The notes under the pieces: model-generated
What the model was told of the DNA's origin: nothing
The model's database searches: none
What the model saw: only the letters and a program-made list of their open reading frames with translations
Source of the DNA: Dyella japonica A8
Lineage (GTDB): Bacteria; Pseudomonadota; Gammaproteobacteria; Xanthomonadales; Rhodanobacteraceae
Assembly (NCBI RefSeq): GCF_000725385.1
Contig: NZ_CP008884.1
Coordinates: 1,922,001-1,986,000 of the forward strand
Reading direction: 5' to 3'
Length of the DNA: 64,000 nt
In this document: positions 1 through 15,498 of the stretch, one piece after another
How the letters are laid out: every line of letters starts with the position of its first letter
Position numbering within the stretch: position 1 is the stretch's first letter
Translations under genes and position numbers: made by a program

Positions 1-165
1 TGGGATGCCATCCGCGACCACATGCTGGCCAGTTTCTCACGCGGGGATTGGCGCAAGGGCTGCCTCGACGGCATTGCCGAAGCGCACGCACTTCTGCTGA
101 AACATTTTCCTGGCAATGACAAGGACGCACCCGACGAATTGCCGGATCGCCCGATACTGCTCTGA
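1..165 (+). CDS. C-terminal fragment of a TPM-domain-like protein
   Basis: The frame is open from the window edge to a TGA at 163-165 and encodes the last 54 residues of a protein that starts outside the window. The fragment has a helical stretch with the pattern W-x2-I-x3-M-x3-F-x2-G-x-W, then HFPG and a terminal ELPDRPILL. From memory this resembles the end of short TPM-domain proteins found next to LemA/YgcG-like genes in Xanthomonadales; I cannot confirm that without the N-terminal part. No function is assigned beyond this family resemblance. Confidence 0.5.
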   Translation, partial: WDAIRDHMLASFSRGDWRKGCLDGIAEAHALLLKHFPGNDKDAPDELPDRPILL

Positions 166-323
166 CCTCAGAGGATGAGCTTGAAGGGTGTCAAGGCGAC
201 GATGGGCGCGAAAGCTTGGGAATGGGTGGCGCTACAGCGGCCTGTGCCCGTGGCGATGCCCTGAGTTTCTTGCTCCGCGCCTTCACGTCAATCAGGGGGC
301 GCAGATACCAGGGCGCTGCCGCT

Positions 324-1010
324 TCAACGGCGCCGATGCCGCCGGTGTTCCATCATGGTTCCAATGACGCGGCCGGGGTTGTCCGCCGACACTCGAATGA
401 TGTCGAAATCCTCGTTGAGAGGCGCGAGTTCGAAGACAGGCTGGTTAGTTGGATCGATGCCACGAGGCCGATACTTCAAGAAGATGGCGCTCGTGTCGCT
501 ATCGAGCTTTGCAACGACAAAATCCCCTGGAAGGGGAGGGGTGCTCGGGTCGACGATGACGATATCGCCTGGTCGAAACTCGCTCAGCATCGCCTCGTCC
601 TGAATTTCCAGGGCAAACGCGAATTGGCTCAAGCGCTCTGCCAGTTCGCCCCCGATGACCAGCGGCCGCAGGCCATCATACTTTGAAGAGCCTTGCCCCC
701 TCGGCCATTCGCCGGCCTGCGCATGGGAGAGGATGGGTATCAGCCTGGTCTCGTCCTTGACGGCATGGCGGCTGGCAGCGGGGCCAGCATATCCTCCTGA
801 GCCCTTTCCCGTTTTCAGGTAGGCGACAGTGACGCCTAGCGCGTCTGCCGCCGCCTGAAGCGCGGCATTCCGGATGTTCTCCGGATCAGTTGTTCCGTCC
901 TCCCAATACTTGATCGAGGTCCCGGTGACTCCGGCTTTCACGCCAAGGGCGCGCTGCGAGAGCCCACTGGCGGCGCGGGCAGCCTTGAGTCGATCGCCGA
1001 ATCTTTTCAT
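324..1010 (-). CDS. Phage-type repressor: XRE HTH + S24/LexA-like domain, catalytic Ser replaced
   Basis: This 228-residue protein has the lambda CI/LexA architecture. An N-terminal helix-turn-helix of the XRE type (about residues 4-65) is followed by a C-terminal S24 peptidase-like domain (about 88-220). A CI-style self-cleavage site is present (SHAQAG, Ala99-Gly100) and a candidate general-base Lys lies at 179 in IFLKY. The position of the nucleophilic Ser in the usual G-[DN]-S-M motif reads DEAM, so it is Ala140 (codon GCG at 591-593). The family represses promoters and is inactivated by RecA-stimulated autocleavage; this copy should bind DNA but may not cleave itself. Two palindromic operator-like sites lie just upstream of the ATG and overlap its probable -10, implying autorepression. 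No other phage genes are visible. Confidence 0.85.
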   Translation of the reverse strand: MKRFGDRLKAARAASGLSQRALGVKAGVTGTSIKYWEDGTTDPENIRNAALQAAADALGVTVAYLKTGKGSGGYAGPAASRHAVKDETRLIPILSHAQAGEWPRGQGSSKYDGLRPLVIGGELAERLSQFAFALEIQDEAMLSEFRPGDIVIVDPSTPPLPGDFVVAKLDSDTSAIFLKYRPRGIDPTNQPVFELAPLNEDFDIIRVSADNPGRVIGTMMEHRRHRRR

Positions 1011-1037
1011 GGCAATAAGACTACTTGCCAGAGCGAA

Positions 1038-1070
1038 AAGTATACTTTCCTTTGATTGGAAAGTGTACTT
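1038..1070. promoter_or_regulatory. Paired palindromic operators upstream of the repressor gene
   Basis: AAGTATACTT (1038-1047) is a perfect 10-bp palindrome and AAGTGTACTT (1061-1070) is the same site with one substitution. Their centres are 23 bp apart, about two helical turns. Together with flanking TTCC/GGAA they form a larger inverted repeat with 13-bp arms (1038-1050 and 1058-1070). On the minus strand the first site contains TATACT, a good -10 placed about 29 bp upstream of the repressor ATG. The most likely ligand is the adjacent XRE repressor. Confidence 0.6.
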
Positions 1071-1267
1071 ATCATCAGGGATATTTACCTTCTCACCATG
1101 CCTTTGCCACTGATTCTCTACGGCTCCCTAAGGGGGCGGGGCGCTGACTGGCAAAAAGAAGGCGAGCGATTGGTTATGACGCCTCCCTGCGAAGCGAGGC
1201 GATGGCGAGGCTTGGAGCGTATCAGCCCAACGTTGGGAGCAAAACATTGATGTTCGTGGAGCGGAGT

Positions 1268-2353
1268 ATGAAAACGACATGCCATCCATGCGATCGGCAC
1301 CTTGACTCATCAGAGCGCGCTGTTGGGCAGTTCCTCCCACATCGGCACTGCCAAGCCTGGCTGCAGGCCATCCTTTTCCTCATCTCGCTGCTCGCCAGCA
1401 ACGCCCTTTGGGCGACGGGATGCAGCAGCCTCAATGGCAACCCGAAGACATTCACCATCAACCTGGGTGGCGGAAGCGTCATGATTCCACGCGACACCGC
1501 GACGGGTGCGGTGCTCTATACGGTCAATGGTCCCCAGCTACCCCAGGGCTCGGTAGCGGACACCAGCAGCTGGATAGCGCAATGCACAAACGGCAACGGC
1601 ATCACGAACGGCGTGCTGATGACCACGCCCTGGCCGGCGGTTAGCCCTGGGTTGTACGCCACCAATGTGAGTGGCATTGCTGTGCGGATCAAGCGATTTG
1701 CGAACACGTTTCCCTTTAGCTACGCATATACGCCGGCAAGCTTCACCGGAGGTGGCCCGCCCTACGGCTGGTACTTCAACGCTGGCCCCATCGTCACCTA
1801 CAGCTTCGAAAAAACGGGTCCCATCTCCGGCGGTACCGTCACCGCCGCCGATATCGCTAACGTGGGGATGAACTACGACGGCACGGTCTATGCCTTCTAT
1901 ACCAACACAAGCGGACAGCTCACCTTCACTGTGGGGGCATGCGTGACGCCGGACATACAGGTGCCGCTAGACCCGATGCCGACATCGGCATTCAGCGGAG
2001 CCGGCAGCACGGCGGGAGCCAAGCCCTTCAGTATTGCCGTGAACGGTTGCCCGCCTGGTTTGAACTCGGTGATGTACCAGTTGGATGCGGCGTCAGGCAT
2101 CAGTGTGATCAACGCGGCTCAGGGCGTCATCGGTCTTGGCCAGAGCGCCTCGGCGACGGGCGTTGGCCTGCAGATTCGGGACGGCAGCAATAATCCGGTG
2201 AGTTTCGGCGCCATGCATGCAACAACGGGCTACAACAAGACAAGTGGCGGGAGCTTTTCCATCCCCTTGAAGGCGATGTACTACCAGACGGCCGCCAGGA
2301 TGACTGCGGGGTCGGTTGCTTCCCAGGCTGTCTTCACCATGAGTTACCAATAA
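1268..2353 (+). CDS. Two-domain type 1 fimbrial adhesin-like protein, orphan
   Basis: With the ATG at 1268 (GGAG 6 nt upstream) the product is 361 residues; an ATG at 1250, with GGGAGC upstream, is an alternative. A long N-terminal region leads into a hydrophobic signal core ending around NALWA. A mature Cys-containing N-terminal domain of about 190 residues follows. The C-terminal part has the layout of a chaperone-usher pilin domain: a Cys followed by beta-strand patterns, a second Cys, the ATGVGLQI strand, and a final FTMSYQ resembling the terminal strand recognised by fimbrial chaperones. This is the tip-adhesin arrangement. No usher or chaperone gene lies in the window, so assembly would need partners elsewhere. 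A strong terminator follows. Confidence 0.7.
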   Translation: MKTTCHPCDRHLDSSERAVGQFLPHRHCQAWLQAILFLISLLASNALWATGCSSLNGNPKTFTINLGGGSVMIPRDTATGAVLYTVNGPQLPQGSVADTSSWIAQCTNGNGITNGVLMTTPWPAVSPGLYATNVSGIAVRIKRFANTFPFSYAYTPASFTGGGPPYGWYFNAGPIVTYSFEKTGPISGGTVTAADIANVGMNYDGTVYAFYTNTSGQLTFTVGACVTPDIQVPLDPMPTSAFSGAGSTAGAKPFSIAVNGCPPGLNSVMYQLDAASGISVINAAQGVIGLGQSASATGVGLQIRDGSNNPVSFGAMHATTGYNKTSGGSFSIPLKAMYYQTAARMTAGSVASQAVFTMSYQ

Positions 2354-2915
2354 CGGCACGCGACGGCGATACGGCCCACTGGCGTGTCCTGATGACGCGC
2401 GCATGGGTGGGGTAGTTACGTAAACGTATGGGATGGAACCAAAGGCAGCCGTTGCATGCGGCTGCTTTTTTTTGGGGTGCCTCGCGAGTTTACGCCCAAT
2501 GATCGAGTCGGCCCTGTTCAAGCCAAATCCTGCAAGAAGCAGTGGCTGCAAGCCCCCTTGGCGCTCACGGGTAAGGGCCTTCCGCTCGAACCTCGCGCAA
2601 GTTAAATCAAGGCGTGAAAGGCGGCATCCATGGAACATGACGAATCACGGCGTGCGTGATGGATGACATCCATTGTGAGCACATGCCGCGACATTCGGAT
2701 TATCGCCGGATATGTGTTGCGGCAAAGATATCCGGACATGAATATGCGTAACGCCGGTGTCTCGCTGCACGATGCAATGTGGCTTGTCGCTACGGTTCGC
2801 TTGCCTGTTTGTATACCTGTTCCTTTCAGGTTCGCTCAGCGTGTCAATTCCGGCATAACAAGTCTGCGGTGATGACGCCGTTGGCAATGACCTTAAACGT
2901 AATGGGAGTCAGTCC
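2354..2915. other. Intergenic region between fimbrial gene and peptide locus
   Basis: These 562 bp contain no convincing gene apart from the short ORFs expected by chance. They hold the terminator at 2445-2473 and two small inverted repeats that could be regulatory: ATGGAT-N3-ATCCAT (2659-2673) and CCGGATAT-N14-ATATCCGG (2706-2735). The Shine-Dalgarno GGGAG (2904-2908) serves the small peptide gene. The promoter for the peptide locus should lie between about 2480 and 2880; I could not identify a strong -35/-10 pair. Confidence 0.6.
2445..2473 (+). terminator. Rho-independent terminator after the fimbrial gene
   Basis: A perfect 7-bp stem, GCAGCCG (2445-2451) with CGGCTGC (2459-2465), has a 7-nt loop and is followed directly by eight T residues (2466-2473). 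It separates the fimbrial transcript from the peptide-export locus downstream. Confidence 0.85.
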
Positions 2916-3029
2916 ATGAGGAAAATCGACAAGGCCGAACTGGCCAAGGCCGAACTGGCCGGTGGTTGCTGCAAGCGCGCGTGCACGGGCGGTGGCGGTG
3001 GCAATGGTAAAGGTGGCAACGGCGTCTAA
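2916..3029 (+). CDS. Double-glycine leader peptide precursor (candidate microcin/bacteriocin)
   Basis: This 37-residue ORF has an ATG at 2916 with GGGAG seven nt upstream and a TAA at 3027-3029. The N-terminal 17 residues read MRKIDKAELAKAELAGG, matching the short M-R-x-[IL]-…-E-L-…-G-G leaders cleaved by C39 peptidases. The predicted mature peptide is 20 residues, CCKRACTGGGGGNGKGGNGV: three Cys, three basic residues, and a Gly/Asn-rich C-terminal half. It lies about 140 bp upstream of an HlyD-like gene and a C39-peptidase ABC transporter on the same strand, the expected context for an exported peptide. No lanthipeptide, YcaO or radical-SAM enzyme is nearby. Seen: the ORF, leader and neighbours. 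Inferred: export and biological activity, which could be antibacterial or signalling. Confidence 0.75.
   Translation: MRKIDKAELAKAELAGGCCKRACTGGGGGNGKGGNGV
2931..2960 (+). repeat. Perfect 15-bp tandem duplication inside the leader
   Basis: AAGGCCGAACTGGCC occurs twice head to tail (2931-2945 and 2946-2960), in frame, giving KAELA-KAELA immediately before the Gly-Gly cleavage site. It lengthens the leader by five residues. Confidence 0.95.
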
Positions 3030-3053
3030 TCCGTCCACAGAAATCGTCGCAAG

Positions 3054-3081
3054 GTCGGCCACGACATCTGTCGTGGTCGAC
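3054..3081 (+). other. Strong stem-loop between peptide gene and exporter genes
   Basis: Arms 3054-3066 and 3069-3081 pair over 13 positions with one G-U pair (core CCACGACA/TGTCGTGG). The stem starts 24 nt after the peptide stop codon. No T-run follows, so it is not a classical terminator. Hairpins at this place in bacteriocin operons often protect the precursor mRNA or attenuate the exporter genes; either role is inference here. Confidence 0.6.
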
Positions 3082-3165
3082 GCTTGAGTTCTGTATGACA
3101 GAGGTGAATGCGGCTTACGGCGTGCGGCAAGGCGCGGCAGGCTGAAGGATGGCTAGCGACAGGGA

Positions 3166-3942
3166 GTGTCCCGTTTGGATATGCCTCATCTTCCCCGCTT
3201 TGGCGACGTGGCTTGGCGTTGGGTTGCCTACGCCTCGTCAGCGATCGTGCTTATCGCTGTTGCATCGGCGTTTCATGCAGAGATTGAACTGAAGCGCGAC
3301 GTTGCCTGTGAGGTGGTGTCGCCGTCTGTGCTGCCGATTCCGGTGCAAGGCGGGAAAGTTTCTGGTGTATACGTCCATGCGGGACAGCGGATAAGGCAAG
3401 GCGAACCCTTGCTTGCGCTGTTGTCCATCGCATCGGGAGTATCCGAGTCGGCTGGTGACGTCGATAACGTCGTCGCACCACAGGATGGTGTTGTCGCATT
3501 CGTTCATGCCCGGGTTGGGCGCTGGCTGGAACGCGGCGATGTTGCGGTGATCCTTGATACCCAGCCGGATGGGCCACTACAGGTGGTTCTGCGCATCCCT
3601 TCCGGTCAGCGCGGGTTCGTGCAGCACGGCCAGCGCGTGGGCATCAAGTTGGATGCGTTCCCCTTTTCGCGCTTTGGCGTGCGTGCGGCCACGATAGGCT
3701 CCGTGTCCGAAGTGACGACGGGTAATGCCGTTGCTGACAGTCCGCTGGAAGATTCCGGCATCGCCAAGGACGCCAGCTCGGACTATCTCGCCTGGGCCTC
3801 ATTGGGTGCCCGCACGTTTCGCTACGGCGGGGAAGAGCTCCACATTTTTCCGGGTATGCGGGGCAGGGCGTCCATCGTGGTTGAGCGACTGACGCTGGCT
3901 GAGTGGCTGTTCGCACCGCTGCTTCGCGCCGTTCGCGGTTGA
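3166..3942 (+). CDS. Short HlyD-like periplasmic adaptor for peptide export
   Basis: The product is 258 residues from the GTG at 3166. A TTG at 3175 has AGGGAG at better spacing (8 nt) and an ATG at 3181 is a third option, so the start is uncertain. One transmembrane segment lies at about residues 17-38. A lipoyl/biotinyl-like half follows (VQGGKVSGVYVHAGQRIRQG), then a second half-motif (VVAPQDGVVAFVHARVG) and a beta-barrel-like region. This is the membrane-fusion-protein plan of type I secretion. It is far shorter than CvaA- or HlyD-type adaptors (about 400 residues or more) because the coiled-coil hairpin between the two lipoyl halves is essentially missing. It lies 3 bp before the C39 ABC transporter gene and almost certainly works with it. 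Confidence 0.8.
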   Translation: MSRLDMPHLPRFGDVAWRWVAYASSAIVLIAVASAFHAEIELKRDVACEVVSPSVLPIPVQGGKVSGVYVHAGQRIRQGEPLLALLSIASGVSESAGDVDNVVAPQDGVVAFVHARVGRWLERGDVAVILDTQPDGPLQVVLRIPSGQRGFVQHGQRVGIKLDAFPFSRFGVRAATIGSVSEVTTGNAVADSPLEDSGIAKDASSDYLAWASLGARTFRYGGEELHIFPGMRGRASIVVERLTLAEWLFAPLLRAVRG

Positions 3943-3945
3943 CGC

Positions 3946-6309
3946 ATGCGCGTTATCTATCAGAACGAGGTCGCCGAGTGCGGCTATGCCTGCCTCGCCA
4001 TGGTGCTCAGTCACTTTGGCCGTGCCACGGACGTCAGGGAAATCTCGACGTTTCGGCCCATTTCTTCCAACGGGTTGACGCTGACCGACCTGTATGACGT
4101 GGCTACAGAATTTGGCCTTGAGGTGGAGGCCTATCAGTTTGGCCCCGAGCATGTGGATGAAATCCCTCGCGGTGCCATCCTGCACTTTGGTGGTGCGCAT
4201 TTCGTGGTGTTCGAAAAGGCGCGACGCGGCTACGTTCGCGTCATTGATCCAGCGGTGGGGCGGCGGCGGATCGCGATGGATGTATTTGTGGCGTCCGCAT
4301 CGGGTTACCTTCTTCAGTGCTCGCCGACGCCCGACCTGCCGCAGGTCAAGGCGCGATCGAAGGTGCGGGCCGCACTGGAGCGGGTGCGCACGCTCAATCC
4401 GCAGTTGAACTCGCGTATTCGGAAAGTCCTTTTCGTCGCCATCGGCGCGCAATTTGCGATCCTCGCGACGCCGTTCTTTGGCGGTCTCGCCCTCGATTAC
4501 GTCGTCGCGTCCGACAACATCGATCTGCTTGGGGCGCTGGTGCTTACCTTCGCCAGCATCTTCGTGGTGGGGGCCATGGGCCACTTCGTGCAGGGCTATC
4601 TCACCGAGGTGGTATTTGGCGAAGTGCGAATGAACATGACCGAGGGTCTTGTCGGTCATCTGCTGAGAAACCCCATCCCGTTTTTCGAAAAGCGCAATGT
4701 CGGCGATCTGTTCGCGAAGATCAGGATGCAGGAGGAGGTGGACGACTTCGTGACGCGTACGGCGGTAACCATGCGTATCGATGTTGCGGTTGCCCTGCTA
4801 GGCACGGGACTGATGATGCTGGCCAGCGGTACGTTGGCTGCGATCACGCTGGGCCTGTTCTTCGTCTATGTCATGGTGGCGATGGGCATTTTTGTGCGCA
4901 TGCGCGACGTGCATGCCTTGATCATGGAGGAATCAGGTCGATGTGACGACGCCCTCATTGAGACGATACGGGGTGCTTCGCTGATCAAGCTTTCGGGGGG
5001 CGAGCTGCGGCGGACCGGTCAATTCATGTCACGGTTCCGGGGCTATGTGTCGGCGGTACTGGAGCGCTCCCGTCTGGTGATTTTTCGCGAATCCATGCAG
5101 AAGCTTCTGGCCTACGTGGATGTGCTGGTCATCACCTGGCTCGCCTGCAGGCTGATGTTGTCGGGCAGCATGTCGCTGGGCGTGTTCTATTCGTTCATGA
5201 TCTACAAGTCGTTGGTGACTGAGCGGCTTACGCGCGTCATCAATGGTTTGATTGCCTACGGCATGCTGTCGGCCCCGGTGGGTCGTGTTGCCGACATCGC
5301 CGATGCCGAAGGTGAGCGTTACAGCACGCCGGATGCGTTACATCGCTCGCCGGAAACGCGCTCATTCCAGTCGCTGGAAATGCAGAACGTGAGCTTCCGC
5401 TACGGGGTTTCCGACCAGTGGATCCTCAAGGAGGTCAGCCTGACCCTGCGCAAGGGCGACAAGGTGGCCATCGTCGGACCGTCAGGCAGTGGCAAGTCGA
5501 CGATCTTCAAGCTGCTGGCGGCATCCGAGCCACTCCATGACGGCGAGATCCTGTTGAACGGCATTCGCTGGCCCAACCTCGCGGTAGATGAGATCCGTCG
5601 CCATGCGGCCCACATGCGCCAGGGCGACATCATTCTCTACGGATCCATTGCGGACAACGTCTCGATGTTCACCGGGCAGACAGACGAGGATCGCGTGCGT
5701 CAGGTGTTGGAGGACGTAGGCCTGATGGATGACGTCATGCGCTTGCCCATGCGCGCCCGGACCGTCGTGAGTGACACCATCGCCAACATCTCGGCCGGGC
5801 AGCGTCAGCGCCTCCTGCTGGCGCGGGCGCTCTATATGGACAGGGAGGTGCTGATGCTCGATGAGCCCACCTCGAACCTCGATCCATCGTCGGTGGAGCT
5901 CATTGCGCGGCTCCTGGCCGGCATCGACAGGACGGTGGTGGTCATCACACACGATCATTCCCTGGCCTCGCATTTCGATCGGCGCTTTGAGCTGAGGGAT
6001 GGTCGGTTGGTGCCCGCAGGCAAGGACGCGGTGCAGGTAGGCAAGGAAGAGGCCGGGACGGAGGGCGCCATCGCAGATGCGCCTGCTGCGGAGAGCACCG
6101 CAACGGTGGCGGCGTCGACGATGGCGGACGTCGTCGATGGTACTGAGGCAGAGGGCGGCATTCCGGTGGACGTCGCCTCACACGACGCCTCCGTGGTTAG
6201 TCCCACCAAGGTACATGCTGCCTCCGGCGCTGCGGTGAATCGCCTTGGCCCGTTGCCTGGTGCGGCAGCGGCCAGGGTAGCCGCTGGGTTTGCGCGTGAA
6301 ACGCGGTGA
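3946..6309 (+). CDS. Peptidase-C39 ABC exporter (leader-cleaving peptide transporter)
   Basis: This 787-residue protein has three modules. Residues 1-130 are a C39 peptidase with the oxyanion Gln6, catalytic Cys12 (ECGYAC), His85 (GAHFVV) and Asp101. Residues about 150-430 are an ABC-type transmembrane domain. Residues about 465-690 are the ATPase, with Walker A GPSGSGKST near 508-517, signature ISAGQRQR near 612-620 (instead of LSGGQ), Walker B VLMLDEP and the H-loop VVVITHD. The family cleaves peptide precursors after Gly-Gly and exports them across the inner membrane. An unusual tail of about 100 Ala/Val/Asp-rich residues follows the ATPase and looks disordered. The 37-residue double-glycine peptide upstream is the obvious substrate. 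Confidence 0.92.
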   Translation: MRVIYQNEVAECGYACLAMVLSHFGRATDVREISTFRPISSNGLTLTDLYDVATEFGLEVEAYQFGPEHVDEIPRGAILHFGGAHFVVFEKARRGYVRVIDPAVGRRRIAMDVFVASASGYLLQCSPTPDLPQVKARSKVRAALERVRTLNPQLNSRIRKVLFVAIGAQFAILATPFFGGLALDYVVASDNIDLLGALVLTFASIFVVGAMGHFVQGYLTEVVFGEVRMNMTEGLVGHLLRNPIPFFEKRNVGDLFAKIRMQEEVDDFVTRTAVTMRIDVAVALLGTGLMMLASGTLAAITLGLFFVYVMVAMGIFVRMRDVHALIMEESGRCDDALIETIRGASLIKLSGGELRRTGQFMSRFRGYVSAVLERSRLVIFRESMQKLLAYVDVLVITWLACRLMLSGSMSLGVFYSFMIYKSLVTERLTRVINGLIAYGMLSAPVGRVADIADAEGERYSTPDALHRSPETRSFQSLEMQNVSFRYGVSDQWILKEVSLTLRKGDKVAIVGPSGSGKSTIFKLLAASEPLHDGEILLNGIRWPNLAVDEIRRHAAHMRQGDIILYGSIADNVSMFTGQTDEDRVRQVLEDVGLMDDVMRLPMRARTVVSDTIANISAGQRQRLLLARALYMDREVLMLDEPTSNLDPSSVELIARLLAGIDRTVVVITHDHSLASHFDRRFELRDGRLVPAGKDAVQVGKEEAGTEGAIADAPAAESTATVAASTMADVVDGTEAEGGIPVDVASHDASVVSPTKVHAASGAAVNRLGPLPGAAAARVAAGFARETR

Positions 6310-6334
6310 ACTTGTTCGTCAATGCCGCCAGCGC

Positions 6335-7294
6335 ATGAATGCATGGCGGCAGGGGCTTCGCAGAGGGCATGCGAGCCTCGTGCGTGGTTGGCGGCGCCGG
6401 GTTTGCTCCGTTCAGAACGGGGTGCTGATGCACGTGTCGTTTGCCACGCTTGCACGGATGGCGAAACTGCGATGGCTCTGGCGCAGTGTGTTTGACGTGC
6501 GCTGGCGGTGGAACGGGATCATCCGTTACGAAACCGGACGAGACCTGTTCTCGCTGGGGCGCGACAAGTGGCTGACAGTCATGGCGGGCGGTGTGCAAGA
6601 GCGCCTGCTCGATCGACGCATTCATCTGGGGCAGCAAAAGTCGGATGCCGTGGAGCATTTGCCGGACCTTGTGGCAGTCGGCCGGCGCGTCGCCGATGGG
6701 GTCGCCGCTCTTTGGGCCAGCCAACCGGACCGCCTGGTGATGCTCTCACCGTTTCACTATGTGTCGCAGTACGCGAATGTGCTGGCGGTGCATGAAGTGC
6801 AACGGGCGCTCGGCGTCGCCCATATCGCGATCGTGTCCGGTGTGCCTCACGATCAGTACGGTAGCGACGCAGGCCTGACACCTGGTATCGAAGTCCTGCA
6901 CACGTTCGGCGATGGGATGCGCAACAGCCTGGGCATCCGCCTGGCGCGAGCGTTGGTGCGGGACAGGTTGGCCGTTCTGTTTGCCGATGCGGCGCCCCAT
7001 TCGATGCAGAAGTACCCGATGGATACCACGGGGGTAAGCATCCTTGGCCGGCCGTCACGCATCCACAGCGGCATATTTCGTATCGGCCAGCGCATGGGCG
7101 TGGTGCTGCTGCCGTACTACCTCACGTTTGAAAGCGGTCGTTTTGGCGTCGTATTGTTCGATCCCGTAGAACTGGCCGACGACGACGCTCCGCAGCAAGT
7201 GGCCGATTGCATCGGCAGTGCGCTGGCGCAGAACTACGAAAGCAACCTGTTCGCTGGCTATCCCACGTTGTATGGCTTTGCCGCCGTGCGTTAA
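6335..7294 (+). CDS. LpxL-like (lysophospholipid acyltransferase-fold) protein of the peptide locus
   Basis: The start is uncertain. ATG 6335 gives 319 residues; in-frame TTG 6290 or GTG 6296 would overlap the ABC gene and add an Arg-rich N-terminus. The middle and end follow the lipid A acyltransferase pattern: a hydrophobic strand ending SPFHYVSQY where LpxL has the HX4D/E box, then a long gap, then LGRPSRIHSG…GVVLLPYY like the FGxPA…G…P[VF]Y region, and a terminal helix. In place of the acidic residue of HX4D/E there is Tyr (H-Y-V-S-Q-Y), so ordinary acyl transfer may be lost or altered. Its position as last gene of the locus suggests lipidation of the peptide, a self-protecting envelope change, or a structural role. 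None of these is shown. Confidence 0.5.
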   Translation: MNAWRQGLRRGHASLVRGWRRRVCSVQNGVLMHVSFATLARMAKLRWLWRSVFDVRWRWNGIIRYETGRDLFSLGRDKWLTVMAGGVQERLLDRRIHLGQQKSDAVEHLPDLVAVGRRVADGVAALWASQPDRLVMLSPFHYVSQYANVLAVHEVQRALGVAHIAIVSGVPHDQYGSDAGLTPGIEVLHTFGDGMRNSLGIRLARALVRDRLAVLFADAAPHSMQKYPMDTTGVSILGRPSRIHSGIFRIGQRMGVVLLPYYLTFESGRFGVVLFDPVELADDDAPQQVADCIGSALAQNYESNLFAGYPTLYGFAAVR

Positions 7295-7342
7295 GCAGCG
7301 CAGGAGCAGGGCGGCCATGCGGCAAGGCGCTGCTCCGGGGCC

Positions 7343-7373
7343 AAAAAAAAGCGGGCCCGAAGGCCCGCTTTTT
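7343..7373. terminator. Bidirectional terminator between convergent genes
   Basis: Stem GCGGGCC (7351-7357) with GGCCCGC (7362-7368) and a 4-nt loop. It is flanked by A8 (7343-7350) on the left and T5 (7369-7373) on the right, so it can end both the peptide-locus transcript and the TonB receptor transcript. Confidence 0.85.
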
Positions 7374-7396
7374 CGAAGTGCTGCACTCTTTCGAAC

Positions 7397-10303
7397 TTAG
7401 AACTTCTGGTTGTACGACACGTACCAGTAACGGTCGATGTCGAAGTTCGGGTTGTACGGCGGGGAGCCGGTACCCGAGGTCGGCACGCTGTAGTAGTACG
7501 GGCCCTTCTTGTTGAAGATGTTGTTCACGCCAACGGTGAACACACCCTTCCACGGAGCCGTGTAGCGGAACTGCGCGTCGTTGAACGCCACCGAACCCTT
7601 CTGGCTCATGCCAACCGACGGCCACCAGGGGTTGGTGTAGTTCGGCGAGCTGCACTCGACGGTTGCGGTGTAGCACTGGTCCTTCAGGCCCGAGTAGTAA
7701 CGGACCGTCCAGCTGGCGCCGAACTGCTTGAAGTCCCAATCCACCTGCAGGTTGGAGCGCAGGCGGTAGATGGGGTCGTTACCGTTGGTGAAGAAGCCGA
7801 CCTGATCCTGCGGGGTAGCGCCCGGGCTGCTGACCGACTCGTACTTGGTCAGGTAGGTGCTGTCCGAAGCGATGCGGAAGCGGCCGAACGAGGTTTCCGG
7901 CAGACGGTAGTGGATACCGACGTCGTAGCCTGCGGTCTTCAGCGTGCCGAGGTTGGCTTCGCTTTCGTTGAGCTGGTTGACCGAGCCCGGGACCAGACCG
8001 GTGCTCGGGTCGGCCACGTTGCCACGGGTGAAGCGGCCGCAGTACGACGGATCGTTCTGCACGTAGCACAGGTTCAGGATCTCGCTGGCGTTGACCGACG
8101 TGATCTGGTTCTTCAGGTAGATGTTGTAGTAGTCAACCGTGAAGTCCAGGCCTTCCACGTAGTGCGGGCTGTAGACCAGGCCCAGCGTACGGGTGATCGA
8201 CTGTTCCGGCTGCAGGTTCGGGTTGGAGCCCGAGACGAACGCCACCGGGGTCTGCGTACCGGTGTTGTTCTTGATCGGCGTGCCGGAGCCGTCGACCTGG
8301 CGGTAGTTGGCCGGGACGCCAGCGGCGGAGCAGCGCTGAGCCACCTGGCTGTTGGTCGCGGCAGCACCGTAAACGGTATCGCACGGATCGATGAAGGTTT
8401 CGAAGCTCTGGCCCGGGCCACCGTACAGGTCGTTGATCGTCGGCGCACGGAAGCCGTGGGCGAACGTACCGCGGATCAGCACGTCTTCGATCGGACGGTA
8501 GCGGAAGCTGTACTTGTTGTTGGTGGTGCTGCCGAAGTTGCTGTAGTTCGAGTAGCGGCTGGCGATGTTGACGCCCAGTTCCTGGGCACCCGGCAGGTCG
8601 CGCAGCAGCGGCACGTCGAGCTCGGCGTACGCTTCGTTGGTGAAGTACTTGCCGGAGGTCGCGTTGGCGGCCAGATCGGTGGTGTTACCGGCGGCAACGT
8701 AGGCATCCGGGCGGTAGCTGCCCTTCAGACCACGGTGTTCCACGCCCAGGGCCAGGTTGACGGTGCCGGCGTTGAGCGGCATCTCGAACAGGCCGCCGGA
8801 GACGTTGGCGGTGTAGTCATCGGTGGAGCTGACCTGACGAGCGGACTCGTGGTAACCCACGTAGTCCAGCACGGACTGCGGGGTCGCACCCGGGCCGGCG
8901 AGGATGTTCCACGGCTGGCAGCCAGCAGCGCGATCGGCGGCGTTGGCGCAAGCCACCTGACCGTTGATGATCGTCGTCGGGCCCAGCGCGGCCTGTGCCT
9001 TGTTCAGGTCCAGGTTGCCGGTGGTGGTGAGGTGGATCTTGTTCTGGGCGTAGGTGTAATCCGCGTCCCAGCTCCAATCGTGGCCGAGGAACTGGAAGTA
9101 GCCCTGGGCGCCGACGTTGATGTTGTAGATCTTGGAGTGAGCCTGCGTGACGCGCGGCATTTCCACCGTGCGGCGGAAGAAGTTCACGTCTTCGCCCGGG
9201 AACGGGTTGTAAGCGTTCTGGCCGCTGATCTGCACGCCGTTCGGGAACAGGTTGCCGACGGTGTTGCCGGTCGAGAACGGATAGCCGGCGAGCTGCGAGG
9301 ACGAGTCACGCACGCTGGCATCGGCCATACCGTGCAGGGTGATGTTGTCGGTCAGCTTGTACTTGTCCTGGACGAACAGGTTCTTCAGCTTGGTGCCGGC
9401 GCGGAACGTCATGTCCTGCGTGCTGTTGTAGCGGTCGGCATTTGTGCTGCCGTCGTACAGGTGGTAGCCAGCGGGGGCACCAGCAGTCGTCGTCTGCGAA
9501 CCGTGGTTGTAAACGTACTGATCGCCGGTGGTCGGATCGACAACGCGGCCGTACGGGCCGGTGGAGCTCCAGCCGCCGTTCGGATGACGGGCACCTTCGG
9601 CGTAGCGGGTTTCCGGACGCTCGCTGTCCCACATCGGATCGGTCTGCTGCTGGGCAGCACCGATGATGATGGAGTTCTTCTCGGTGGTGTGGCCCCAGGT
9701 GAAGTCGTAGTTCTGGGTCTGGCCGTCGCCCTTGCCGTTCTGGCCGTAGTAGACGTTGGCTTCAGCGCCGTCGAACTTTTCCTTGGTGATGATGTTCACC
9801 ACGCCGCCGATGGCGTCGGAACCGTAGATGGAAGAGGCGCCATCCTTGAGGATGTCGATGCGCTCAATCATCGAGACGGGAATGGTCGACACGTCGGTCA
9901 GGCCATTGAGGCTGGTGCTCCAGCGACGGCCGTTGACCAGCACCAGCGTGCGCTGCGAACCCATGTTACGGATGTTCACATAGCGACCGCCGACGTCAGC
10001 GCCGGAGGACAGCGTGTCCTGCGGGGTGATGTCCGGCGTGCCCATGGACGGCATGCGGGCCAGGATGTCGTTGACGTTGGTCAGACCGGTCGCCTGGATG
10101 GCGGCCTTGTCCATGGTGAAGATGGGCTGCGAGGTTTCCACGTCCACGCTGCGAATGCGCGAACCGGTCACCGTGACGGTTTCGAGGCTCTTGGCCGTAC
10201 CCTGATCAGCCTGAGCGGGGGCAGCATCCTGTGCGGCCACCGACCACGTCTGCAGCACGAGCGCTGCGGCGATGGCAGTAGCCAGCAGTGTCTTTTGCTT
10301 CAT
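7397..10303 (-). CDS. TonB-dependent outer-membrane receptor
   Basis: The ATG at 10303 is chosen because GGAG lies 8 nt upstream and a signal peptide starts there (MKQKTLLATAIAAALVLQTW, cleavage near VAAQ); the frame is open further upstream but lacks these features. The 968-residue product has a TonB-box-like segment (LETVTVTGSRI), a plug domain (about 50-190, with the Val-Asn-Gly-Arg-Arg motif), a 22-strand barrel region with Tyr/Phe-rich alternating strands, and a C-terminal Phe. Such receptors take up large or scarce substrates (siderophores, oligosaccharides, peptides) using TonB energy. The substrate cannot be named, as no transport operon or FecR-type regulator accompanies it. It is transcribed alone. 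Confidence 0.92.
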   Translation of the reverse strand: MKQKTLLATAIAAALVLQTWSVAAQDAAPAQADQGTAKSLETVTVTGSRIRSVDVETSQPIFTMDKAAIQATGLTNVNDILARMPSMGTPDITPQDTLSSGADVGGRYVNIRNMGSQRTLVLVNGRRWSTSLNGLTDVSTIPVSMIERIDILKDGASSIYGSDAIGGVVNIITKEKFDGAEANVYYGQNGKGDGQTQNYDFTWGHTTEKNSIIIGAAQQQTDPMWDSERPETRYAEGARHPNGGWSSTGPYGRVVDPTTGDQYVYNHGSQTTTAGAPAGYHLYDGSTNADRYNSTQDMTFRAGTKLKNLFVQDKYKLTDNITLHGMADASVRDSSSQLAGYPFSTGNTVGNLFPNGVQISGQNAYNPFPGEDVNFFRRTVEMPRVTQAHSKIYNINVGAQGYFQFLGHDWSWDADYTYAQNKIHLTTTGNLDLNKAQAALGPTTIINGQVACANAADRAAGCQPWNILAGPGATPQSVLDYVGYHESARQVSSTDDYTANVSGGLFEMPLNAGTVNLALGVEHRGLKGSYRPDAYVAAGNTTDLAANATSGKYFTNEAYAELDVPLLRDLPGAQELGVNIASRYSNYSNFGSTTNNKYSFRYRPIEDVLIRGTFAHGFRAPTINDLYGGPGQSFETFIDPCDTVYGAAATNSQVAQRCSAAGVPANYRQVDGSGTPIKNNTGTQTPVAFVSGSNPNLQPEQSITRTLGLVYSPHYVEGLDFTVDYYNIYLKNQITSVNASEILNLCYVQNDPSYCGRFTRGNVADPSTGLVPGSVNQLNESEANLGTLKTAGYDVGIHYRLPETSFGRFRIASDSTYLTKYESVSSPGATPQDQVGFFTNGNDPIYRLRSNLQVDWDFKQFGASWTVRYYSGLKDQCYTATVECSSPNYTNPWWPSVGMSQKGSVAFNDAQFRYTAPWKGVFTVGVNNIFNKKGPYYYSVPTSGTGSPPYNPNFDIDRYWYVSYNQKF

Positions 10304-10656
10304 TGTTGGAACTCCGAACAAAAAATAGCCATCAGCCAGCTCGCGAGGGCTGGACATCTGGGTATGGGGATGGCTCGACCTCCCTGGGGAAGGGGTCCGT
10401 GCCGTGGCATCGCCGGGCTTGGGGGACAGGCGATGTAATCCCGAAGTTAAAACAAAGTGACGTGTAGGTGCAAGCCTGTTGAAACAGTCGGGTGATAGTA
10501 GGTTTTGGTGTAAAGGGGCTATTTTTTCGGTGCGGGTGACGGCCACAAAGGCTTGTCTACGCTTGACATTGCCGGCAGGCCGGTGCGTTTTTGCCGCCCC
10601 CATGCCTTCACGGGGCGCGCCCGCTACACTGACGCTTTTCCGCCGCCCGCCGACCC
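10304..10656. other. Divergent promoter region between TonB receptor and lgt
   Basis: These 353 bp hold no gene I can support. They must contain the receptor promoter (minus strand; an A/T-rich stretch lies at about 10445-10530) and the lgt promoter (plus strand). A TACACT hexamer at 10625-10630 sits 26 bp upstream of the lgt ATG and is a plausible -10, although no good -35 lies 17 bp before it. No riboswitch or Fur-like palindrome was recognised. Confidence 0.5.
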
Positions 10657-11547
10657 ATGACGCAGCCCTTCACCGTTGCCTTCGACCCCGTCGCCTTCAA
10701 GCTGGGGCCGCTACAGATTCACTGGTATGGCTTGATGTACCTGAGCGGTTTCCTTGGGGCCTGGCTGCTGGCCGAGTACCGCCGCCAGCGCGGCCGCCTG
10801 CCGGTATCGCGCGACGCGCTGGGTGACCTGGCCTTCTACGTGATGATGGGTGTGATCATCGGCGGCCGCATCTGGTACATGCTGTTCTACGCCGACATCC
10901 ACTGGATCTGGCAGGACCCGCTGGCGCTGTTCCGCGTGTGGGATGGCGGCATGAGTTTCCACGGCGGCTTGCTCGGTGTGCTTACCGCCGGCCTGTGGTG
11001 GTCGCGTCGCAACCACATGCATTTCTTCGACACGGTGGATTTCGTGGCGCCGCTGGTGCCGATCGGACTCGGTCTGGGGCGCCTGGGCAACTTCATCAAC
11101 GGTGAGCTGTGGGGCAAGCCGGACACGGTGCCGTGGGCCATGCTTTTTCCCAATGCGCATTCGGCCGATGTGGACTGGGCCGCCACGCACCCGCAGTGGC
11201 AGGCGGCGTTGGCGCAGTTCGGCGGGCTGCCGCGTCACCCCTCCCAGCTTTATGAAATGCTGCTGGAGGGCGTGGTGATGTTCACCGTGCTGTTCCTGGT
11301 GTCGCTCAAGCCGCGCCCGCGCTACCTGGTTTCCGGCCTGTTCGCGCTGATGTATGGCTGCTTCCGCTTCGGCGTGGAGTTCGTGCGCGTGCCCGATCCG
11401 CAATTGGGCTATCTCGCGTGGGGTTGGCTGACCATGGGGCAGATCCAGTCGCTGCCCTTGATCGTCATCGGCCTGGTGCTGCTGGTGATGGCCCGCAAGG
11501 CGCCGACCATGCGGCCGTACAACGTCTCGCTGCCGACCGGGGAGTAA
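10657..11547 (+). CDS. lgt: Prolipoprotein diacylglyceryl transferase
   Basis: A 296-residue polytopic inner-membrane enzyme that transfers diacylglycerol from phosphatidylglycerol to the lipobox Cys of prolipoproteins, the first step of lipoprotein maturation. The family signature [13 protein letters not shown] is present near residues 140-152. The N-terminal YGLMYLSGF segment and the [11 protein letters not shown] loop, containing the conserved His, are also visible, with seven hydrophobic segments. Length is normal for the family. The stop codon is 3 bp before thyA, the usual lgt-thyA pairing in proteobacteria, so the two are probably co-transcribed. Confidence 0.97.
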
Positions 11548-11550
11548 GCC

Positions 11551-12345
11551 ATGCGCGCCTATCTTGATCTGCTGCAGCATGTGCTTGACCACGGCGTGGA
11601 GAAGGGCGACCGCACCGGCACCGGCACGCGCAGCGTGTTCGGCTGGCAGATGCGGTTTGACCTGTCCGAAGGGTTTCCGCTGGTCACCACCAAGAAGCTG
11701 CACCTGAAGTCGATCATCCACGAGCTGATCTGGTTCCTGCGGGGCGACACCAACATTGCCTATCTCAAGGACCATGGCGTCAGCATCTGGGACGAATGGG
11801 CCGATGAGCACGGCAACCTGGGCCCCGTCTACGGCCAGCAGTGGCGCGCCTGGCCCACCGCTGACGGCGGCGTGGTGGACCAGATCCGCTGGGTGGTGGA
11901 CGAGATCAAGCGCAACCCGAATTCGCGCCGCCTGGTAGTGAGTGCATGGAACGTTGGCGAGCTGCCAAAAATGGCGCTGATGCCGTGCCATGCGCTGTTC
12001 CAGTTCTACGTGGCGGACGGCAAGCTCAGCTGCCAGCTCTACCAGCGCTCGGCGGACATTTTCCTGGGGGTGCCGTTCAACATCGCCAGCTATGCCTTGC
12101 TGACCCACCTGATTGCCCAGGAATGCGGGCTGGGCGTGGGTGATTTCGTGCACACGCTGGGCGATGCCCACCTGTACAACAACCACGTGGAGCAGGCGCG
12201 CCTGCAGCTGACCCGTGCGCCGCGGCCCCTGCCCAGGCTGCAGCTGAATCCAGACGTGCGTTCAGTGTTCGACTTCCGTTTCGAGGACATCGCCATCGTC
12301 GGCTACGAGCCGTATGGCGCCATCAAGGCCCCGGTGGCGGTATAA
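11551..12345 (+). CDS. thyA: Thymidylate synthase
   Basis: Converts dUMP and methylene-tetrahydrofolate to dTMP and dihydrofolate in the cytoplasm. The 264-residue length equals that of the E. coli enzyme, and the nucleophile is Cys146 in LMPCHALFQ. The [11 protein letters not shown] phosphate-binding loop near the N-terminus and the [11 protein letters not shown] and QLYQRSAD segments are all conserved. It follows lgt by 3 bp and precedes folA, whose product recycles the dihydrofolate made here. Confidence 0.98.
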
Positions 12346-12497
12346 CAAGGCGTTGGCCCGGGGTTCGCTGACACCGGGCATGGCGCAGGCTGTCATTTGG
12401 CGCGGATGGACGCCGGCATGCTGCTAAGATCGGCGGCGCGCGACGCCCCTGGCTGGCGGCGCGAGTGGTCAACACTGTCGATGATTCAAGGATTTCC

Positions 12498-12986
12498 ATG
12501 GCTATTTCGCTGATTGCCGCGCTGGATGAGAACTTCGCCATTGGCCGCAAGGGCCAGTTGCCCTGGCATTTGCCGGACGACCTGCGCTGGTTCAAGGAGC
12601 TCACGCTCGGCAAGTACGTGCTGATGGGCTACAACACGGCCGTGGCGATTGGCCGCCCGCTGCCGGACCGCACCAACCTGGTGCTGAGCCGCAAGCACGA
12701 GGCACCGTTTCCCGGCCAGATCACCGTGCGTTCGCTGGCCGAGGGCCACGCCCGCGCCGGTGGCACCGGCCTGATGGTGATCGGCGGTGGCGAGGTCTAC
12801 ACCGAGGCGCTGCCCACAGCGCGCCGCCTGTACCTCACCTGGGTCAACGCCGCGGTGGACGGTGCCGACACCTTCTTCCCGGGCGTGCATTTCAGCGACT
12901 GGACCGAAGTCTCCCGCGTGCATCACAAGAAGGATGCCAACCACGCGTATGACTTCGACATGGTCGAGTACATCCGCAACGACTGA
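12498..12986 (+). CDS. folA: Dihydrofolate reductase
   Basis: A 162-residue DHFR reducing dihydrofolate to tetrahydrofolate with NADPH. The ATG at 12498 (MAISLIAALDENFAIG) is preceded by AAGGA at 5 nt and matches the family N-terminus; an upstream in-frame start would add 11 unrelated residues. Conserved PWHLPDDLRWFK carries the catalytic acidic residue. The GYNTAVAIGRPLPDRTNLVLSR nucleotide-binding region is slightly unusual: the usual G-R-x-T-[WF] reads GYNTA. GGGEVYTEAL follows. It is 152 bp after thyA and 12 bp before the mutT-type gene, a nucleotide-metabolism group. Confidence 0.95.
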   Translation: MAISLIAALDENFAIGRKGQLPWHLPDDLRWFKELTLGKYVLMGYNTAVAIGRPLPDRTNLVLSRKHEAPFPGQITVRSLAEGHARAGGTGLMVIGGGEVYTEALPTARRLYLTWVNAAVDGADTFFPGVHFSDWTEVSRVHHKKDANHAYDFDMVEYIRND

Positions 12987-12998
12987 GCGGCATCCGGC

Positions 12999-13952
12999 AT
13001 GCCTGCTTCGACGGCCGGCGCCATGCATGTCATGGCCGGCGTCATGCTCGACTTCCAGGGACGCGTGCTGCTGGCGCAGCGTCCGCCCGGCAAGCACCTG
13101 GCGGGGCTGTGGGAATTTCCCGGTGGAAAGCTCGAGGTGGGCGAAACGCCTGCCGAGGGCCTCGTGCGCGAACTCCATGAAGAGCTGGGCATCGAGGCCA
13201 CGGTGGCTGAGCCCCTCATTCGCGTGCCCTGGCGTTACGGCGAACGCTCCCTGCTGCTCGACGCGCGTATCGTCCGGGCATGGCAGGGCGAGCCCGCCTC
13301 GCTGGACGGGCAGGCGCTGCAGTGGGCTGAGCCTGCCTCGGTCGACCTGAGCCTGCTGGCACCAGCGGACCGCCACATCCTGCGGGCACTCCAGTTGCCC
13401 TCGCGTTATGCCATCACGGCAGATGTGCCGCCCTCGGCGATTGAGGCGTGGCGGCAGCGCGTGCGCCACGCCATCGCTGCGGGCGAGCGGATGATCCTCC
13501 TACGCTTTCCGCAGTGGCCGCCGCAGCAGGTGAGGGCGCTGGCGGCTGATCTGTTGCCCGAGGCGCGGGCCCGGGGCGCGCATCTAGTGTTGAGCGGCGA
13601 CGTCGATGGCGCGCTGGCGCTGGGAGAGGGTGCAGGCGTGCAGCTCAAGGCGGCCCAGCTCGCCCAGTGGCGCGAAAGGCCCTTGCCCTTGATGCAATGG
13701 GTGGGGGCGAGTTGCCATCACGCAGCCGATCTCCAGCGTGCGCTGGACGTCGCGGACTTCGCCACTGTGTCGCCGGTCGCCATGACCGCAACGCATCCCG
13801 CTGCCCTGCCTTTGGGATGGACGGCGTTCGGGCATCTGGTGAATGCCTCGGCCTTGCCGGTCTATGCGTTGGGCGGCATGAGCCCGGCACAGCTCGACAT
13901 GGCGCGGCAGGCCGGTGCGCAGGGCGTGGCGGGGATCCGCGGCTTCTGGTGA
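12999..13952 (+). CDS. mutT: 8-oxo-dGTP diphosphatase MutT fused to a ThiE-like domain
   Basis: A 317-residue two-domain protein. Residues about 8-135 are a Nudix hydrolase with a complete Nudix box (GGKLEVGETPAEG…RELHEELGI), expected to remove mutagenic 8-oxo-dGTP. Residues about 145-317 resemble thiamine-phosphate synthase (ThiE/TenI fold), with QLKAAQL and the terminal VYALGGM…GAQGVAGIRGFW. This MutT-ThiE-like fusion is known in gammaproteobacteria; the ThiE half is usually taken to lack normal thiamine synthesis. The gene lies 12 bp after folA and is probably co-transcribed with it. Confidence 0.9.
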   Translation: MPASTAGAMHVMAGVMLDFQGRVLLAQRPPGKHLAGLWEFPGGKLEVGETPAEGLVRELHEELGIEATVAEPLIRVPWRYGERSLLLDARIVRAWQGEPASLDGQALQWAEPASVDLSLLAPADRHILRALQLPSRYAITADVPPSAIEAWRQRVRHAIAAGERMILLRFPQWPPQQVRALAADLLPEARARGAHLVLSGDVDGALALGEGAGVQLKAAQLAQWRERPLPLMQWVGASCHHAADLQRALDVADFATVSPVAMTATHPAALPLGWTAFGHLVNASALPVYALGGMSPAQLDMARQAGAQGVAGIRGFW

Positions 13953-13953
13953 T

Positions 13954-14577
13954 TCAGCGCCCGGCCTGGGCGAGTGCCAGATAGCGTGCGTGCAGGTCTG
14001 CCACGGCCCGGTCGAGGGCGGATTCGTCGCCGCTGTTTTCGATGACATCGTGGGCCAGCAACAGGCGGTGTTCGCGCCGCGCCTGGCGTTCGATCATGCG
14101 CCGCGCCAGTGCTTCGTCGATGCCGTCGCGCCGCATCAGGCGCTCCCTCTGGACGGCTTCGGGGGCATCGATCACCAGGACGCGATCCACCCAGCGATAG
14201 TGATCGTGGTTTTCGGCAAACAACGGAATGGCGAGCAGGCAGTAGGGGCCGCGATCGGCCATGACGCGCTCGCGCAGCCAGGCGCGCACGCGTGGGTGCG
14301 TGATGGCTTCCAGGGCCTTGCGTTCCGCATCGTTGCCGAACACCCGCTGGCGCATGGCGGCACGGTCGAGCTGTCCGCCGGCATCGAGTACGCCGGTGCC
14401 GAAATGGTCGACGATGGCCGCCAACCCTTCCGAGCCGGGGGCGACCACTTCGCGTGCGGCGACATCAGCGTCGTAGACGTGGACACCCATAGCCTCGAAG
14501 CGTCGTGATACGGCGCTTTTGCCCGCAGCGATGCCGCCGGTGAGCGCCACCACGTAGCCCGGGTGGGGCAAGGTCAC
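13954..14577 (-). CDS. coaE: Dephospho-CoA kinase
   Basis: A 207-residue kinase for the last step of coenzyme A synthesis. The P-loop GGIAAGKS lies near the N-terminus, DADVAARE and a LID-type Arg-rich segment (RMIERQARREHR) follow. The GTG start at 14577 overlaps the pilD stop by 4 bp (GTGA), which fits translational coupling; the frame is open further upstream but that region is pilD read in another frame. Its place after pilD is conserved in many gammaproteobacteria. It ends 1 bp from the convergent mutT-type gene. Confidence 0.96.
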   Translation of the reverse strand: MTLPHPGYVVALTGGIAAGKSAVSRRFEAMGVHVYDADVAAREVVAPGSEGLAAIVDHFGTGVLDAGGQLDRAAMRQRVFGNDAERKALEAITHPRVRAWLRERVMADRGPYCLLAIPLFAENHDHYRWVDRVLVIDAPEAVQRERLMRRDGIDEALARRMIERQARREHRLLLAHDVIENSGDESALDRAVADLHARYLALAQAGR

Positions 14578-15431: not shown

Positions 15432-15450
15432 GCGGACATCCGATGGTTAT

Positions 15451-15484
15451 AAAAAAGGCCCCCCTCCCGGCAGGGAGAGGGGCC
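15451..15484 (-). terminator. Rho-independent terminator after pilC
   Basis: On the minus strand a 12-bp G/C-rich stem (GGCCCCTCTCCC pairing with GGGAGGGGGGCC, one G-U pair, 4-nt loop; 15457-15484) is followed by six T residues (15456-15451). It lies 14 bp after the pilC stop. Confidence 0.85.
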
Positions 15485-15498
15485 CGGACTGCGAGAGA

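Follow-up and report, generated by a model that had tools for sequence, protein, structure and literature searches.

Class II microcins such as MccV, which is paired with CvaAB, combine a Gly-Gly leader with a C39-type type I secretion system (T1SS), and the acyltransferases PatA (mycobacterial) and LpxM (lipid A) act on lipids. The raxX–raxSTAB system of Xanthomonas is a 5-kb cluster that has a sulfotransferase as its tailoring enzyme and is supplied with TolC from elsewhere (PMC6637879). Selidamides, nostolysamides and other lipidated ribosomally synthesized and post-translationally modified peptides (RiPPs) carry a fatty acyl group on lysine, ornithine or the N terminus, and those discussed in PMC13060382 are lanthipeptides, with GNATs as the lipidating enzymes. 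Here we analyse a 64,000-nucleotide stretch (the window; NZ_CP008884.1, positions 1,922,001 to 1,986,000) of the single-contig, 4.83-Mb genome of Dyella japonica A8, which contains a four-gene cassette encoding a Gly-Gly precursor peptide, a HlyD-like adaptor, a C39-peptidase ATP-binding cassette (ABC) exporter and a protein with an acyltransferase fold (Table 1). We favour, with more confidence than doubt, the view that the locus is a dedicated cassette that makes and exports a small, probably fatty-acylated peptide; the product would most likely be a lipopeptide acylated near its N terminus.

By architecture, the nearest system is raxX–raxSTAB, which shares the Gly-Gly precursor, the single tailoring enzyme, the HlyD adaptor and the C39-type ABC exporter. 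The type of cassette found in the window differs from it in having a LABLAT-fold protein, a different core, fimbrial neighbours and an adaptor without a hairpin; in place of a tyrosine sulfotransferase, its fourth gene encodes a protein with a PatA-like fold and no Pfam match. By presumed product, the nearest systems are the selidamides and other lipidated RiPPs, but the acyl group of the window type is a presumption and its acyltransferase fold is unrelated to GNAT. No GNAT acyltransferase or lanthionine synthetase was found at the locus with hmmscan (seven proteins against Pfam, six against NCBIfam), and by the features compared the cassette is a member of neither raxX–raxSTAB nor the GNAT-type lipidated RiPPs. 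Literature searches limited to open-licence PMC papers listed no description of a Gly-Gly peptide/acyltransferase cassette. An earlier sequence-only reading of this DNA knew of no described family for the peptide, which holds for that literature; the precursor does, however, belong to a family, in which 84 of the 85 members read appear intact.

Table 1 Positions of the cassette and of adjoining features in the window
Feature	Position	Strand	Basis
Precursor open reading frame (ORF), 37 residues, ATG start	2916..3029	+	ORF read in sequence
Ribosome-binding site GGGAG of the precursor gene, 7 bases 5′ of ATG	2904..2908	+	Sequence reading; putative function
Leader MRKIDKAELAKAELAGG, 17 residues, conserved type, Gly-Gly end	2916..2966	+	Leader-pattern comparison across loci
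Core CCKRACTGGGGGNGKGGNGV; Cys+1 and Lys+3 conserved, variable tail	2967..3026	+	Comparison of 85 precursors
Stem-loop of 12 bp, 3′ of the precursor gene	3054..3081	+	Folding z −3.26 for 3027–3165
HlyD-like membrane fusion protein, 258 residues, without periplasmic helical hairpin	3166..3942	+	PF13437, E 5.7e-14
C39-peptidase ABC exporter, 787 residues	3946..6309	+	PF03412, PF00664, PF00005
LABLAT-fold acyltransferase-like protein, 334 residues, probable peptide acyltransferase	6290..7294	+	Predicted fold, conservation, tree
Fimbrial adhesin-like gene (PF00419 and MrkD-like N-terminal domain)	1202..2353	+	Homologues adjoin the cassette, in the same orientation, in other loci
S24-peptidase/helix-turn-helix repressor-like gene, upstream of the adhesin-like gene	324-1010	-	Side observation
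GC-rich palindrome between the acyltransferase gene and a convergent TonB receptor gene	7351..7368	.	Terminator-like by eye; not listed by computed scan

Relatives were collected by an exporter scan with one genome per species, which gave 68 loci; after two distant Clostridium rows (L074 and L076) were dropped, 66 remained, with exporters 53–65% identical over the best segment. Sixty-three of these are from Burkholderiales, and the set is dominated by Paraburkholderia and Caballeronia; Burkholderia contributes some loci, and Cupriavidus, Pseudomonas, Rhodanobacter and Dyella one each. Together with the window (L001) and a genus-mate (G179; L115), they form the 68 loci searched for precursors, using a leader pattern widened to cover GTG and TTG starts. 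The search returned 85 plus-strand precursor ORFs in 67 of the 68 loci (1–4 per locus), all 85 lying 5′ of the cassette genes, and 4 minus-strand matches that do not resemble them. The locus without a precursor (L070) is from a Candidatus symbiont, as is L056, which holds a degraded copy. The cassette is broken in three loci (L056, L064 and L070), all recorded under symbiont or Candidatus names, the enzyme being fragmented or stop-containing or the precursor missing.

A profile built from 32 precursors matched 3 of 20 genomes of the window's genus at E ≤ 3e-10 (next best, 0.02). Of these 20 genomes, 18 were additionally searched for the exporter, and an exporter at least 60% identical is present in the same 3 alone. 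Leader codons differ mostly at third positions (16,907, 9,304 and 30,156 differences at positions 1, 2 and 3), and codons with a single difference are synonymous in 15,969 cases and non-synonymous in 7,031. A chance ORF is ruled out by the family profile matches, the 85-to-4 strand bias and the synonymous codon pattern, and it is unlikely that the frame is kept as a by-product of another feature because leader changes are mainly synonymous. The 37-codon gene is real and a member of a large, overlooked family of exported bacterial peptides. Co-conservation of the small ORF with homologous exporters, which the sequence-only reading had named beforehand as its check, was borne out by the locus set, and the genus profile search agrees. 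The elements it had picked out are likewise present: the 37-residue ORF with a good ribosome site and a short, conserved leader ending in Gly-Gly, and, on the same strand, the short HlyD, the C39 exporter and the acyltransferase-like fourth gene. Its expectation that the adjoining exporter cleaves and exports the precursor, leaving a Cys- and Gly-rich core of 20 residues, is supported.

The leader is 17 residues long in 82 of the 85 precursors, and the first residues of the core are conserved: Cys at +1 in 67, Cys at +2 in 55 and Lys at +3 in 76. Beyond them the core varies freely in length and composition: in Paraburkholderia it is often rich in Pro, Thr and Ala, in Caballeronia it is rich in Ser and Thr and has a beta-branched end, and in the window and G179 it is Gly/Asn-rich.

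The fourth gene encodes a protein whose predicted structure, compared with VIA-align, has the PatA/LpxM acyltransferase fold, that of LABLAT/Lip_A_acyltrans (PF03279) proteins. A search of PDB sequences with the enzyme profile gave no matches, and database labels on these enzymes range from 'lauroyl/myristoyl acyltransferase' to 'hypothetical' and even 'ABC transporter'. Each unbroken enzyme copy found in 144 Paraburkholderia-type genomes adjoins an exporter, and there is one enzyme gene per locus, even where there are 2–4 different cores. Among 66 stop-free copies, His156 is conserved in 65 (the exception, L064, is a fragment), and Asp233 and His259 in all. The earlier statement that no modification enzyme is adjacent is therefore not supported: the product of the fourth gene, which accompanies the cassette constantly and has an acyltransferase fold, is a probable modification enzyme.

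The label 'microcin-type' is not favoured either. A class II microcin or bacteriocin would be an unmodified or disulfide-bonded toxin, with the acyltransferase-like gene protecting the producer through its envelope lipids; it shares with the window type the Gly-Gly leader and the C39-type T1SS, is compatible with variable cores, and would suit an enzyme whose nearest structural relatives are lipid acyltransferases. We consider this unlikely. When ORFs of at least 110 residues from 69 loci were grouped by single linkage, no separate gene other than those for the enzyme and for export was shared by all or almost all loci; no conserved immunity gene thus emerged in that size range, which speaks against a simple lone microcin. 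Moreover, the acyltransferase is a constant partner, one enzyme gene serves up to four different precursors, the cores are short and of low complexity, and a sister branch couples the enzyme with genes for an acyl carrier protein (ACP) and a ketosynthase.

That branch emerged from a search of a 398-genome sample of the phylum with the enzyme profile, which matched four genomes: that of the window, two others with its type of enzyme, and G568, whose enzyme is divergent (E 1.8e-13). The G568 locus encodes, in order, a Gly-Gly peptide, an acyltransferase (PF03279, over the cut-off), a C39 exporter, MacA, MacB, TolC, a ketosynthase, a MaoC-like protein, an ACP and a ketoreductase. In 149 genomes of the same family the enzyme occurs in 15 including G568, one other having two copies, so that 15 further loci were read. 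All 15 contain genes for the enzyme, C39 exporter, MacA, MacB, TolC, ketosynthase, MaoC-like protein and ACP, together with a DsbA-like gene; a ketoreductase gene is present in 13 (one stretch ends first). Each of the 16 sister loci encodes a Gly-Gly precursor, and 2 of the 3 tested match DUF4762 (PF15959); we found no paper on DUF4762 in the open-licence literature. These precursors resemble the window type in their Gly-Gly leader, related acyltransferase, C39 exporter, TolC and fimbrial neighbours, but differ in a longer, Cys-rich core with DKxG, the DsbA-like gene, MacAB and dedicated fatty-acid synthesis genes. In a tree that sampled 16 of the 66 enzymes of the Burkholderiales/Dyella type, together with the 16 sister enzymes and 13 housekeeping LABLATs, all peptide-linked enzymes fall on one side of a branch with support of 100/100, apart from the housekeeping proteins. 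The latter retain HX4(D/E), in a comparison that left out one ambiguous row (L179), whereas the sister enzymes have HX3D in 16/16; an invariant His-x-Gly is common to both peptide-linked groups (24/24 window-type and 16/16 sister rows aligned).

The sister clade is probably Enterobacteriaceae, because plasmid matches to its enzyme are mostly from Escherichia and Salmonella; E. coli accounts for 10 of 15 such plasmid records. Annotation alone places a sister-type cluster on the E. coli plasmid pCFSAN083828_2, with the enzyme labelled 'ABC transporter'. In the annotation of a conjugative IncF E. coli plasmid (L182; CP070400.1, 126229–150978), the order is DsbA, 'ABC transporter' (the enzyme), an ABC protein (688 residues), an adaptor, an ABC protein, TolC, ketosynthase, a hypothetical protein, ACP and a short-chain dehydrogenase/reductase. 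The sister exporter is not two split ORFs: its frame is uninterrupted in 14 of 16 loci, L116 has an internal stop and L161 a single stop. The stop in L116, the G568 locus, is in frame (exporter at 10680–12809), and this copy may be inactive.

The window's exporter has three Pfam domains and the Cys/His/Asp triad of a C39-peptidase ABC exporter (Q6, C12, H85 and D101, as first noted), with Walker A, SAGQRQR and LMLDE. Its best NCBIfam match, the NHLP exporter family NHLM_micro_ABC1 (TIGR03796), was rejected at 341.8 bits against a curated cut-off of 853.3. An Ala-rich C-terminal extension occupies window positions 6010–6309; the window and G179 exporters have 787–790 residues, and relatives match to about residue 690–720. 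A TolC-family gene lies 3′ of the exporter in 63 of the 66 loci (the L021 stretch ends before that position); none was found at L034 (Rhodanobacter), L054 (Dyella) or G179, or in window positions 1–16000. In these same four loci HlyD has 258–289 residues, against at least 396 elsewhere, not counting L070, where the copy is broken, and L060, where HlyD and exporter are merged in a truncated ORF. The short proteins lack the helical hairpin, some 150 residues, that otherwise separates the two lipoyl halves, and the model of the window's HlyD shows one transmembrane helix, an all-beta body and a loop at the hairpin position (pLDDT 75, pTM 0.53). In T1SS, the adaptor hairpin reaches TolC. Because both this contact and the TolC gene are missing, the product of the Dyella/Rhodanobacter lineage is probably delivered to the periplasm or envelope. 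A tree of 18 of the 33 exporters (from 68) that passed a start-and-no-stop filter, with 3 outgroups, did not reject a topology that places the four TolC-less loci together (p-AU 0.10), and is compatible with one loss or two. The joint absence of hairpin and TolC offers a natural experiment on adaptor docking in T1SS.

This apparent lack of an own outer-membrane route in the window's lineage also bears on a RaxX-like signalling peptide, matured by a tailoring enzyme and aimed at a eukaryotic host or at kin. The shared architecture of Gly-Gly peptide, modifying enzyme, HlyD and C39 ABC exporter, as described in PMC6637879, would suit such a signal, but no sulfotransferase was seen at the locus and the core varies freely after its first residues; we regard this explanation as quite improbable.

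Fimbrial genes adjoin the cassette in 23 of 69 stretches, the window and G179 included (adhesin or pilin genes in 21 loci, usher genes in 15), and in each of the 23 the best match is co-directional with the cassette. The taxa are Dyella, Rhodanobacter, Caballeronia, Burkholderia, Cupriavidus, Paraburkholderia and Pseudomonas, in the last of which the genes lie downstream. In 8 of 15 sister loci the precursor is preceded, at a distance of at most 1.3 kb, by a pilin gene that is co-directional by coordinates; in a ninth such a gene is 7.6 kb away. This adjacency suggests a functional link, hitchhiking being the alternative. The peptide could even be a structural or assembly accessory of chaperone–usher fimbriae, but we think this decidedly unlikely: no fimbrial genes were found within about 6 kb on each side in 46 of the 69 stretches, and the window has a lone adhesin-like gene near the cassette while the three usher genes of the genome are elsewhere.

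Under the lipopeptide reading, the precursor would be translated from 2916–3029 and the LABLAT-fold enzyme would acylate the core in the cytoplasm, with acyl-ACP or acyl-CoA as donor. Acylation before export is proposed because of the acyltransferase fold, the strict linkage of the enzyme to a peptide and the peptide's exporter, and the ACP and chain-building enzymes that the sister clade carries. If modification precedes leader removal, the acceptor has to be a side chain: Lys+3 is the proposed site because it is the most conserved core residue, with Cys+1 next, and Cys+1 or Cys+2 would be the alternative. The C39 domain would then cut after Gly-Gly, and the core would cross the inner membrane through the ABC exporter. 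TolC and the hairpin-bearing HlyD that belong to the cassette in Burkholderiales and Pseudomonas would lead to secretion; for the window's lineage, release to the periplasm or envelope is probable. Because fimbrial genes recur nearby, the product may take part in adhesion or in colonizing surfaces.

Several observations weigh against this reading, among them the 46 stretches without fimbrial neighbours. Lys+3 is absent from 9 of the 85 cores; 3 of these have Lys at +2, 2 at +4 and 2 at +6, 1 has no Lys nearby and 1 comes from a degraded gene. At E ≤ 0.1 no Pfam match was obtained for the window's enzyme, so that the PF03279 gathering score is not reached, and PF03279 matches its relatives weakly in 3 of 45. 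Unlike the housekeeping LABLATs, none of the 66 window-type enzymes has an acid at +5 of the HX4(D/E) motif (at position 161, 63 copies have Tyr, 2 Phe and 1 Cys), and the motif is HX3Q in 64 of 66, with E in Pseudomonas and A in the L064 fragment, so that activity may have changed or disappeared. No fatty-acid synthesis genes were seen in the Burkholderiales/Dyella form of the cassette. The missing acid would also suit an enzyme-like protein without catalysis, which as chaperone or adaptor would present the leader peptide to the exporter, but His156, Asp233 and His259 stay fixed and the sister branch retains HX3D beside an ACP gene, which make this very unlikely. A broader joint reading, which we put forward tentatively and at somewhat less than even confidence, is that a clade of the LpxL/PatA fold, its catalytic motif shifted, turned from lipids to peptides and attaches acyl groups to Gly-Gly precursors, near Lys+3 where the cassette is of the Burkholderiales/Dyella form; that its products form a class of lipidated ribosomal peptides working with chaperone–usher fimbriae; and that the Rhodanobacteraceae system was converted from secretion to periplasmic delivery by loss of TolC and the hairpin.

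If the lipopeptide reading is true, a LABLAT-fold peptide acyltransferase would be a route to lipidated ribosomal peptides other than GNATs. One conserved leader, a tolerant core and the simple four-gene form would be suited to peptide engineering, and the fimbrial link makes a testable prediction on surface colonization. Such short precursors are easily missed by annotation, and the clusters are common (66 of the 144 Paraburkholderia-type genomes; sister enzyme in 15 of 149).

A strong stem-loop lies 3′ of most precursor genes: across 84 precursors the median z is −3.27, and 60 have a stem of at least 8 pairs. The controls gave z −0.43 after the enzyme gene (such stems in 18/66), −0.10 after the HlyD gene (9/68) and −1.11 upstream of the precursor (21/84). 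The stem-loop is probably an mRNA stabilizer or partial terminator that raises precursor over exporter mRNA. A promoter scan gave nothing above shuffles.

Among other neighbours, a TonB-dependent receptor gene (7397–10603) is convergent with the cassette in the window and has the same placement in G179 (77% identity); it was not seen in the 14-kb stretch of L054. Small ORFs of 121–129 residues lie between usher and adhesin genes in L012 (2901–3266; no Pfam match) and L034 (2633–3022). Four Paraburkholderia loci (L032, L040, L052 and L063) have, by eye, a response regulator-like gene of about 220–250 residues on the minus strand upstream of the precursors.

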